Below are positions 14,578 to 45,061 of a stretch of 64,000 nucleotides of DNA, piece by piece. This DNA is from Succinispira mobilis DSM 6222 (GTDB lineage Bacteria; Bacillota; Negativicutes; Acidaminococcales; Succinispiraceae). Every line of letters starts with the position of its first letter. Within the stretch, counting starts at the first letter, position 1. The notes under the pieces were generated by a model. That model was given only the letters and a program-made list of their open reading frames with translations. It made no database searches and had not been told where the DNA came from. The translations under genes and the position numbers were made by a program. The stretch is from positions 709,351 through 773,350 of the forward strand of contig NZ_KB913028.1 of assembly GCF_000384135.1 (NCBI RefSeq), given 5' to 3'.

Positions 14578-14742
14578 TATATGGGAGAATGGCAGTGATG
14601 TCTACCGAAGGATTTAAACTCTCAGGTGCCTTGAAAAAGGTGGAACCGTATATGGACATAACTCTGGAGAGCCCCTTTAAGTAGGGCGCCGAAGGTGCAC
14701 GGGTTTAGGCCCTTATCTCTCAGGCAAAAGGACAGAGAATGT
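14578..14742 (+). ncRNA. tandem glycine riboswitch (gcvT motif)
   Basis: Two consecutive glycine aptamers are visible. The first contains ACCGAAGGATTTAAACTCTC and CAGGTGCC. The second contains GGAGAGCCCC, GCGCCGAAGG and CTCTCAGGCAAAAGGACAG, the hallmark end of glycine riboswitches. It is followed by a terminator hairpin at 14786 and then the alsT gene, so glycine binding probably controls transcription of this amino-acid:Na+ symporter. Whether it acts ON or OFF cannot be read safely; a short 'AGAGA'/'TCTCT' alternative pairing between the aptamer end and the region before the terminator is possible. Confidence 0.92.
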
Positions 14743-14785
14743 AAAATTTAAATGTAGTGTTAGTGCTATGTTTTCTTTCTCTATT

Positions 14786-17982: not shown

Positions 17983-18024
17983 AAACAGGTAACTGATTTT
18001 TTGAAAATCGGTTACCTGTTTTTT
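17983..18024 (+). terminator. guaA terminator, target of the intron
   Basis: An 18-bp near-perfect stem (arms 17983-18000 and 18004-18021, 3-nt loop) continues into TTTTTT. It lies about 95 nt after the guaA stop and directly abuts the intron 5' end, the classical insertion context of group IIC introns. Confidence 0.88.
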
Positions 18025-18449
18025 GCGGTTTGCCCTGAATGGGCGATAACTTGGTGGTGAAAGTCCACTACAGGCTTGGCAGTAGGAACTTAGCAGAGGG
18101 CAAGGGCGTCCATCGTGAGGTGGAGTCTGAAGTAAGCCTAATGCAAACTCTCGGTCTGACGAATAGAAATTACATATAAGGCATTTGCAGGGTGGACGAG
18201 TTTGCTGCACAAAACAAAGTCCAATACTGTCCGTAAATGTAGCAGATATATGAGGGGAAGGTTATCGTTCTTAACGGGGGAGGTCTTGCAAGGCTTCGAA
18301 GGACATCGGCAACCCCATGACACCCAAAGAACCCATGTAGTGATGTATGGCTAAATTGCAAGAAGTCAGCAGAGGTCATAGTACCGAAGGTTTTTTTTCG
18401 GGAAGGACTGAACAATAGTAGTTTTTTTGAACGAGAGGATGGTGAAGCC

Positions 18450-19841
18450 ATGTTAAGAGAGCAGAAAACGGCTAAGGTCGGCTGCCGTTATGAGGGTATG
18501 TTGGAAACCAAGAGTAATAATGGAGCGCGGAGCATGGTGACACTTGAAACCGCAGAGAAAGACGGTGCAAACAAATTACTCGAAGAAATACTGCATAGAG
18601 ATAACCTCAATATAGCCTATCTAAGAGTAAAACGAAACGGCGGAGCGCCTGGCATTGACGGAATGACAGTAGAAGAAATGTTATCCTATTTAAAGAAACA
18701 TAAGGAAGAATTGCTGGCAAGCATACGAGGTGGCTGGTATAAACCTAAACCCGTGAGAAGGGTAGAAATACCAAAACAAGATGGAGGAAAGAGGAACCTT
18801 GGAGTACCAACGGTAATAGACCGCATGATACAACAGGCTGTAGCACAAGTGCTACAGCCGATATTTGAACCACTATTCTCCGAAAATAGCTATGGTTTTC
18901 GACCTGGGCGCAATGCATATCAAGCAATAAAGAAAGCCGAAGAATATTATAAACAAGGATATGTCAGAGTAGTAGACATTGACCTTGCAAAATATTTCGA
19001 CACGGTGAATCATGACATTCTAATAAATAGGCTACGAAAAGAAATAAAAGAGGAAGCTGTAATAAGTCTAATACGCAAGTTCCTAAAGAGTGGCGTAATG
19101 ATAAACGGCATAGTTAATAAGATGCAGGAAGGGACACCACAAGGTGGCAACCTATCACCGCTGTTAAGCAACATATATCTTACCGCATCTGACCAAATGC
19201 TAGAAAGCAGAGGACATAAATTCGTAAGATATGCGGATGACTGTAACATTTACGTCAAAAGCCAGAGAGCCGCCGAGCGAGTTATGACCAGTTGCACAAA
19301 ATACCTTGAGAATAAGCTAAAGCTCAAGGTGAACCAAGAAAAGAGTAAAGCGGGAAGTCCGTTAAGACTCAAATTTCTAGGATTCTCACTCTATAAAACA
19401 GGGAAAAGAACGGGAATACGTCCTCATGGTAAGCCAATAGAGAAATTCAAGTCAAAAATCAGGCAACTAACAACAAGCAGGAAACAAGCCAAACCGATAG
19501 CGGAAATTCTTAAAAGCATAAAGAATTACACGATAGGATGGCTAGGTTATTATTCCATAGCAAATATGAGTTCAAGGATAAACACTTTGAACGAATGGAC
19601 ACGAAGAAGAATAAGACAAATCTTCTGGAAGCAATGGAAGAAACCTTCTGCGAGGTTCGAAAACCTCAAACGGCTAGGAATACCAAAACGAAAAGCCTGG
19701 GAATGGGCAAATTCTCGTCTCGGCTACTGGCGTATCGCCGATAGTTGGATATTGCATAGGTCATTAACAAACGAATACCTCGCATCCATTGGCTATGATG
19801 ACATAGCTAAAAGATACGAGGCATTGCACTCAAACTATTGA
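18450..19841 (+). CDS. ltrA: group II intron reverse transcriptase/maturase
   Basis: A 463-aa intron-encoded protein. RT blocks are in order: GAPGIDGMTVEEM, RRVEIPKQDGGKRNLGVPTVIDR, SYGFRPGRNAYQA, VVDIDLAKYFDTVNHDIL, GTPQGGNLSPLLSNIYL, the active-site FVRYADDCNI, and KFLGFSLY. The maturase/X domain includes TIGWLGYYSIANM, and the C-terminus SRLGYWRIADSWILHRSLTN is typical of class C proteins. There is no HNH endonuclease domain, as expected for IIC introns that target terminators. The reading frame is intact, so the element may still move. The stop codon lies just before domain V. Confidence 0.95.
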   Translation: MLREQKTAKVGCRYEGMLETKSNNGARSMVTLETAEKDGANKLLEEILHRDNLNIAYLRVKRNGGAPGIDGMTVEEMLSYLKKHKEELLASIRGGWYKPKPVRRVEIPKQDGGKRNLGVPTVIDRMIQQAVAQVLQPIFEPLFSENSYGFRPGRNAYQAIKKAEEYYKQGYVRVVDIDLAKYFDTVNHDILINRLRKEIKEEAVISLIRKFLKSGVMINGIVNKMQEGTPQGGNLSPLLSNIYLTASDQMLESRGHKFVRYADDCNIYVKSQRAAERVMTSCTKYLENKLKLKVNQEKSKAGSPLRLKFLGFSLYKTGKRTGIRPHGKPIEKFKSKIRQLTTSRKQAKPIAEILKSIKNYTIGWLGYYSIANMSSRINTLNEWTRRRIRQIFWKQWKKPSARFENLKRLGIPKRKAWEWANSRLGYWRIADSWILHRSLTNEYLASIGYDDIAKRYEALHSNY

Positions 19842-19842
19842 A

Positions 19843-19876
19843 CCGCCGTATACCGAACGGTACGTACGGTGGTGTG
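19843..19876 (+). ncRNA. domain V (catalytic hairpin) of the group II intron
   Basis: The stem CCGCCGTA / TACGGTGG encloses the inner helix TACCGAACGGTA. The lower stem shows a CGC triad in place of the common AGC, which marks group IIC. The hairpin begins two nucleotides after the maturase stop codon. Confidence 0.85.
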
Positions 19877-19997
19877 AGAGGTCGGCTATTCAACTAATGG
19901 GTAGCCTCCTACTCGATTTAAGGTAATGGTCTAAATCGAAGATTTTCAATAGATTATTTATAAAAAATAAAGATACTATTTTTAAACAAGCACTTAA

Positions 19998-20121: not shown

Positions 20122-20916
20122 ATGCAGATTATTAATACACATTTTTACAATCAATTTAGAGATTTATGCGCAAAATCATCTGAGAGTATAAAGCTTTGCT
20201 CACCTTTTGTAAAAAAGAATATAATAAATGATATTTTTTCTTTAAAGAAAAAAAGTGTTGATTTATCATTAATTACTAATGTTAATCTTAATAGTTTATA
20301 TAAGGGAGCCTTAGATATCGAAGTGTTAGAGGCTTTAGCAGAGAGAAATCTACCAATTATAAACGCACAACGTTTGCATGCAAAAATATATATTTTTGAT
20401 AATATAAAATGTGTTATTACTTCGGCTAATTTAACATCTGCTGGCTTGAAAGCCAACCTTGAATATGGTGTATTTATTGATGACAAAGAAATAGTAAATA
20501 ATGTTGTATCTGATTACCAAGATATTTGTAAAAATGAAAATAATGGTATAGTTGAAAAAAAGCATATTTTAAAAATAAAAGAAATTTTATTAACTTTACC
20601 TAATTTTCATAGTGAAAAATTATCTAGATTTGAAGCAGATAATTCAACAGAAATCGAAAATATTATTCAAATAGGCAGTAATAATCTGCTAAATAATTTT
20701 TCGGGATGGAAAAATTTGGTTTTGACATTAATAGTTAGATTAGACAAGGATATTTTTACAAGAGAAGATTTGAAATATTACCAAGACTTTTTATTGAAAA
20801 AATATCCTAAAGCTAAAACACCATTACAGACGGTTAGCCGTGTATTACAGGAACTGAGAGATTTAGGGTTGATTAAATTCTTAGGTAATGGCTATTATCA
20901 AAAACTTTGGAGGTAA
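20122..20916 (+). CDS. PLD-superfamily nuclease with DpnI-like C-terminal winged helix
   Basis: The 264-aa protein has an N-terminal phospholipase-D-type domain with one HKD site: LHAKIYIFD (H86, K88) then TSANLTSAGLKANLEYGVF (S101, N103, E114). With one HKD per chain it would act as a dimer, like Nuc or the BfiI nuclease. The C-terminal ~60 residues, from FTREDLKYY through VLQELRDLGLIKFLGNGYY, look like the winged helix that ends DpnI and the Dam-replacing protein family. I infer a DNA nuclease, perhaps restriction- or defence-related; the substrate is unknown. No methyltransferase is adjacent. Its last codons overlap the Shine-Dalgarno sequence of the next small gene. Base composition is more AT-rich than neighbouring housekeeping genes. 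Confidence 0.72.
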   Translation: MQIINTHFYNQFRDLCAKSSESIKLCSPFVKKNIINDIFSLKKKSVDLSLITNVNLNSLYKGALDIEVLEALAERNLPIINAQRLHAKIYIFDNIKCVITSANLTSAGLKANLEYGVFIDDKEIVNNVVSDYQDICKNENNGIVEKKHILKIKEILLTLPNFHSEKLSRFEADNSTEIENIIQIGSNNLLNNFSGWKNLVLTLIVRLDKDIFTREDLKYYQDFLLKKYPKAKTPLQTVSRVLQELRDLGLIKFLGNGYYQKLWR

Positions 20917-20917
20917 A

Positions 20918-21079
20918 ATGAAATATTTTGTTGAAATAAAAGAAACTCTTACTAAAGTAGTAAAAATAGAGGCAAATAATGCAGAAGAAGCATTAGATGT
21001 AGTTGAAAAACAATATAAAAATTCAGAAATTATATTAGTTGCGGATGATTATGTTAAAACTGAGATATTGGTAAAATAG
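20918..21079 (+). CDS. DpnD/PcfM-like small protein
   Basis: The 53-aa protein begins MKYFVEIKETLTKVVKIEAN, followed by AEEALDVVEKQYKNSEIILVADDY. This pattern (a strand, ETL, V-I-A-N-A-EEA, a YxNxEIxL strand) resembles the DpnD/PcfM family, first seen beside DpnI in the pneumococcal restriction locus and in conjugative elements. Its function is unknown. The start at ATG 20918 is set by GGAGG (20909-20913), which lies within the last codons of the PLD gene, so the two are translationally coupled. A longer in-frame ATG at 20888 overlaps the PLD gene and has no ribosome site. Confidence 0.65.
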   Translation: MKYFVEIKETLTKVVKIEANNAEEALDVVEKQYKNSEIILVADDYVKTEILVK

Positions 21080-44777: not shown

Positions 44778-44837
44778 AGAAAAAACTAGCTTCTAACCCC
44801 CTCCCTATCCTTCGTAGGTAAATTTCGGTGATTGTAC

Positions 44838-44986
44838 ATAGGCAGTTCTCCTGACTTGGATTCATCGTACATTTGCGCCTTCCCAGTTTTACCAGTGGCA
44901 TTGTGCAAAATACTCCTCCATACAGTGGCGGGACCGTATCAGCTTTTACTGATTTCTCTATTGAGCCCTTGCGGGCACCTATGTTT
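44838..44986 (-). ncRNA. cobalamin riboswitch
   Basis: Minus strand order: CATAGGTGCCCGC, CAATAGAGAAATCAG, CTGATACGGTCCCGCCACTG, GCCACTGG, GGGAAGGC, and the B12-box-like AGTCAGGAGAACTGCC. These match the cobalamin riboswitch core. It precedes the terminator at 44751 and cbiK. On the plus strand the complementary ORFs are shadows of this RNA. Confidence 0.92.
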
Positions 44987-45061
44987 TTATTCATCTAGAA
45001 CTGATTATAGCTAAAAATTTTTTTTGTGTCAAGTAAAGAGCCAATTAACCGGAAGGAAGAG

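Follow-up and report, generated by a model that had tools for sequence, protein, structure and literature searches.

A PLD nuclease with a DpnI-type winged helix lies beside a DpnD-family gene in Succinispira mobilis

The two genes described here were found in the genome of Succinispira mobilis DSM 6222, within a stretch of 64,000 nucleotides of contig NZ_KB913028.1 that was analysed as a whole (the window). They are flanked on one side by a group II intron, itself located behind guaA, and on the other by the gene encoding a 4Fe-4S protein (Table 1). Elsewhere, the window carries 23S and 5S rRNA and tRNA (1-2943) as well as cobalamin and glycine riboswitches (44824-44997 and 14654-14745, respectively).

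Table 1. Features of the locus, in window coordinates
Feature	Position	Strand	Details
Group II intron with reverse transcriptase ORF 18450-19841	18022..19917	+	Rfam, RVT_1, GIIM; 5' end approximate
PLD-wH nuclease gene	20122..20916	+	264 aa, pI 9.0
PLD (single HKD) catalytic domain	20170..20514	+	residues 17-131; H86, K88, D93; PLDc_2, invariant residues
DpnI-type winged helix	20704..20904	+	residues 195-261; recognition helix KAKTPLQTVSRVLQELRD; DpnI_C, PDB profile, helix comparison
Shine-Dalgarno GGAGG of small gene	20909..20913	+	directly before nuclease stop TAA (20914-20916)
DpnD/PcfM-family small protein	20918..21079	+	53 aa, pI 4.8; PF14207; AlphaFold2

The first open reading frame (ORF) of the pair encodes an HKD/PLD nuclease domain followed, at the C-terminus, by a DpnI-type winged helix (wH), as an earlier sequence-only reading of this DNA had proposed. 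Pfam matches above the curated cut-offs were obtained with PLDc_2 (6.5e-16), DpnI_C (2.4e-12) and RE_NgoFVII (2.8e-8), and the complete HKD motif (LHAKIYIFD...TSANLT) precedes the winged helix in one chain. H86, K88 and D93 are invariant across seven full-length family members (the window protein and six relatives). When a profile of seven wH domains was searched against the whole PDB, DpnI was the sole match (1.7e-18). In the AlphaFold2 model of the nuclease (mean pLDDT 82.9), residues 163-186 appear as a disordered linker and the helix/strand order of the C-terminus fits a winged helix, while the fold matches returned from the PDB by Foldseek were SauUSI, Nuc, Zucchini and NucT, all PLD proteins. 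The PD-(D/E)XK family of DpnI proper (PF06044) was not found in the ORF by Pfam; a PLD domain is present instead. Identity with DISARM DrmC was rejected, as the score was 52 bits against an equivalog cut-off of 133 and came from a short match to the PLD/HKD motif only, and no DISARM genes were found among the neighbours inspected around the locus.

The protein resembles BfiI and NgoFVII as a metal-independent type of PLD nuclease with one HKD per chain and a C-terminal DNA-binding domain, a likeness also visible in the RE_NgoFVII match. BfiI, however, binds DNA with a B3-like domain and is paired with a methylase, whereas the window has a DpnI wH and no methylase. The PLD-wH architecture is not new: 27 such fusions were reported in 2024 as candidate N6-methyladenine-dependent type IV enzymes (Helbrecht et al., PMC11037411), so that the earlier claim of a new module has to be given up, and what is new is the pairing with DpnD. 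CbaI and Aba4572I, in which a DpnI-type wH likewise follows the PLD nuclease domain and which were proposed to be type IV enzymes, come from Anaerolineaceae/Chloroflexi; hypothetical proteins are mentioned next to their genes, and a DpnD partner is not, the name DpnD having 0 occurrences in the main text (PMC11037411).

The G+C content is 26% for the nuclease gene and 24% for the DpnD gene, and at 25.8% the two-gene stretch falls within the lowest 0.6% of same-size stretches (window mean 36.6%), which bears out the AT-rich composition noted before. The nearest flanking genes (guaA, the intron reverse transcriptase, DpnD, the 4Fe-4S protein and a GGDEF-like protein) include no methylase, making this a stand-alone PLD-wH fusion. 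The neighbours look like housekeeping genes, with a cargo of just two genes, and no defence genes were recognised near the locus in the stretch inspected. A promoter scan gave sites that were not more numerous than in shuffled sequence. Behind guaA there is a near-perfect hairpin resembling a terminator of this gene (17983-18021), and the group II intron starts directly after it. Sites behind terminators are the usual targets of class C introns, so the position of this intron says little about the two genes, to which it needs no tie. We therefore rejected it as an island marker and regard it as probably a neighbour of the cassette rather than a part of it. Of the accessory island put forward by the sequence-only reading, the AT-rich two-gene cargo is retained; the intron is real, but does not serve as its sign.

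The second gene, identified from the start as DpnD/PcfM-like, does belong to the DpnD-PcfM family (PF14207, 5e-16; 58.9 bits against a gathering cut-off of 25). Its ATG lies just past the nuclease stop codon, and its Shine-Dalgarno sequence, located where it had been described, overlaps the end of the nuclease gene, which suggests that the two genes are translationally coupled. AlphaFold2 predicted the 53-aa protein with high confidence (pLDDT 95.4). No PDB match was found for this fold, and a known fold or function could not be assigned, the sole matches being PcfM-like viral proteins; nor was any tested function of DpnD found in the literature examined. PcfM-like proteins of conjugative elements are members of the same family, but there they adjoin mobilisation genes and not nucleases. 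The closest plasmid copies show 46-61% identity to the window protein.

The link between DpnI and DpnD is itself old knowledge. In Streptococcus pneumoniae, where the system is named DpnC plus DpnD (PMC8515895), a DpnD-family gene also lies beside a nuclease with a DpnI-type wH; the nuclease is PD-(D/E)XK there and PLD in the window, and the window protein has not retained the recognition helix of DpnI. Among the genomes that we sampled, DpnD (PF14207) was present in 3 out of 299 and 14 out of 344, and directly adjoined 5 of the 25 non-redundant DpnI_C loci, within about 70 nt and in the same direction. Three types of nuclease are represented at these loci, namely PD-(D/E)XK, PLD and GmrSD: in addition to the window, G441 and G421 have DpnI with DpnD downstream, G592 has a GmrSD_N...DpnI_C fusion with DpnD downstream, and in G270 an upstream DpnD is fused to a D12 methylase remnant and its end overlaps the start of DpnI. 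About 0.0003 loci with DpnD within 300 nt of DpnI_C would be expected by chance, against the five observed, an estimate based on rough genome sizes that takes no account of mobile-gene clustering or of G147 and G182 being close relatives. The extension of the DpnD link to PLD and GmrSD nucleases is the new part of this observation.

One of the two main competing explanations treats DpnD as a passenger of mobile elements that has nothing to do with the nuclease and came to lie by it by accident, an explanation that concerns the partner only and is compatible with other readings of the nuclease. Most DpnD/PcfM genes are indeed in mobilisation regions and not beside nucleases, commonly next to genes read (partly by eye) as relaxase, MobC, RadC, ParB and primase, and the window copy is no more similar to the other nuclease-linked copies than to those of mobilisation regions. 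The recurrence at five DpnI_C loci with three nuclease types, so far above the chance expectation, and the overlap of the Shine-Dalgarno sequence with the nuclease gene make a passenger somewhat unlikely.

Some arrangements of these domains are noteworthy. In L041 (3-1318) a D12 (Dam-type) methylase, of which the C-terminal part is present, is fused in frame to DpnD and followed by an overlapping DpnI gene, as if recombination had joined a DpnII-type to a DpnI-type cassette; the start of the methylase is cut by the contig edge. In L095 (2908-8083), the gene for a GmrSD_N protein with DpnI_C at its end is followed by DpnD, by an integrase-like gene and by a fused D12-N6_N4 methylase that has DSPY in place of DPPY in its first motif IV; in L094, a similar GmrSD-wH gene is followed at about 1.1 kb by a D12-like methylase. 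Recurrent in Bacilli are proteins of about 208 aa with a short DpnI-type wH and a GIY-YIG-like C-terminal domain (YLxSNESIPGWVKIGRTxS; L098, L100, L101, L102 and L103), likely the published wH-GIY-YIG type.

Full-length PLD-wH relatives with 30-42% identity are encoded in seven other genomes (L031-L036 and L097; L036 and L002 are one and the same contig). Viral contigs and phage records yielded none, and a phage origin was set aside; matches on plasmids are limited to the PLD part, with none for the wH. Defence genes lie close to four of the eight PLD-wH genes (L031, L034, L035 and L097), so that the family is not confined to housekeeping surroundings. The L035 gene has PDC-S53 and AbiH as neighbours, that of L034 overlaps a MkoC/MkoA-like helicase gene and an AbiEii-like gene lies 1.5 kb from that of L031. 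No defence neighbour was recognised in the stretches inspected for L032, L033 and L036.

The fourth case, L097 (3969-10299), contains in one row intact DpnII genes (D12 MTase, N6_N4 MTase and DpnII nuclease, 1.3e-93), AbiU/AIPR, a PLD-wH protein with its HKD destroyed (H86N, K88R, N103S) and its DpnI-type helix retained, and an HSDR_N protein. From the gene content, GATC should be methylated in this organism, and the loss of the PLD motif beside an intact DpnII system, a single case, is what one would expect if self-restriction had to be avoided. G458 and G461, which combine PLD-wH genes of intact HKD with D12 methylases of unknown specificity, may be counter-examples. Since the gene that follows is nuclease-like, the L097 protein may be a reader for another nuclease, and it is possible that the row is a composite defence operon with the dead PLD as a reader or dimer module.

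DpnD is not the only small partner seen in this family. A conserved gene for a protein of 83-85 aa, whose start overlaps the PLD-wH stop, is found in L031 (6786-7037), L033 (6798-7052) and L036 (6801-7058); it has no Pfam family, and a profile comparison did not support it as a diverged DpnD. No small partner gene adjoins PLD-wH in L032, and none was recognised beside it in L034 and L035. In the second main competitor, the PLD-wH protein would be a toxic nuclease that cuts with little dependence on modification, and DpnD its antitoxin or immunity protein. A small acidic protein coupled to a basic nuclease with no cognate methylase by its gene would suit this, as would the published behaviour of PLD-wH proteins in E. 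coli without their neighbours: Aba4572I is toxic even without Dam, over-expression of CbaI and Aba4572I for purification failed, and two more were too toxic (PMC11037411). The substituted recognition helix described below also fits. The three relatives beside which no small partner was recognised, together with most DpnI homologues in our sample, which have no adjoining DpnD, lead us to consider this explanation unlikely.

What the window protein may read was approached through the methylases of the host and through the recognition helix. In the host genome (98.4% complete, one contig), neither a D12/Dam methylase (PF02086; the search control was positive in E. coli) nor an N6_N4 methylase (PF01555) was found, and there is one DpnI_C protein and one DpnD. 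The lack of a Dam-type methylase in the host, and of any methylase beside the locus, would suit a stand-alone modification-dependent nuclease, although the host does carry several N6_Mtase/HsdM genes.

The recognition helix of DpnI, taken from the PDB match, is NNHIKEKIRQQLQILRD, and mutation of either of two of its residues (K229A or R231A) impairs activity (PMC4117772). It is kept as 'KIRQ' in L031, L033-L036 and L097. The corresponding helix is AKTPLQTVSRVLQELRD in the window and SKTPDRTLSRVLQELRD in L032, with T and S at the positions equivalent to K229 and R231 in both proteins, a difference that also separates the window protein from Aba4572I and CbaI. The motif for reading N6-methyladenine (6mA) in GATC is thus absent. 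The GATC specificity of DpnI is therefore not transferable to the window protein, and the reading of a modified base finds no support in the protein's own residues. The DpnI-like methyl-dependence first proposed is accordingly sustained by the type of winged helix but not by its recognition helix. As the published 6mA motif is present in only about 10% of wH fusions (PMC11037411), its absence does not exclude membership of the family. The PLD domain of the window is closest to that of L031 (47%), whereas its recognition stretch is 74% identical to that of L032 and 42% to that of L031, which suggests that reading specificity changes separately from the nuclease.

The divergent helix common to the window and L032 would also be consistent with a sequence-specific enzyme for an unmodified site, protected by another methylase of the host, where several N6_Mtase/HsdM genes, four of them strong N6_Mtase matches, are indeed present. 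None of these is near the locus, and 87% of over 1,000 wH fusions have no methylase within three genes (PMC11037411), so that we find such an enzyme quite improbable. That an inactive PLD fold acts as a DNA-binding regulator, like TrmB-type proteins, is highly improbable with the complete HKD conserved in the window and six relatives, even if TrmBL2 was also among the fold matches from the PDB and the motif is lost in L097.

We consider it fairly probable that the two genes form a stand-alone restriction cassette of the modification-dependent (type IV-like) kind, with a PLD dimer as nuclease, the wH as reader and DpnD as modulator. The toxicity of the published PLD-wH protein CbaI in E. coli, which depends on Dam (PMC11037411), speaks for this reading. 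PLD nucleases such as Nuc and BfiI have one active site built from two chains; as the window protein carries one HKD per chain, it probably acts as a homodimer. The winged helix would dock on a modified site; homology points to N6-methyladenine in an ApT context, but the alterations in the recognition helix suggest that this context is not GATC. Metal-free cleavage of the DNA by the PLD dimer would then follow, via a covalent phosphohistidine intermediate, and the acidic DpnD most likely binds to the nuclease, either restraining or licensing it.

DpnI is in standard use in the laboratory, and the pairing of DpnD with a PLD-wH protein could help to show what its old companion does. Since the DpnI-type readers that DpnD accompanies are attached to three unrelated nuclease folds, DpnD can be linked to the reader domain, and its role becomes testable. 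We propose, tentatively, that DpnD-family and 83-85-aa proteins are dedicated regulatory or licensing subunits of wH modification-reading nucleases, whatever the nuclease fold. If this is true, the missing DpnD or 83-85-aa partner would explain the failures to express PLD-wH proteins in E. coli. The divergent recognition helix common to the window protein and L032 may in turn mark a second reading specificity in this family.
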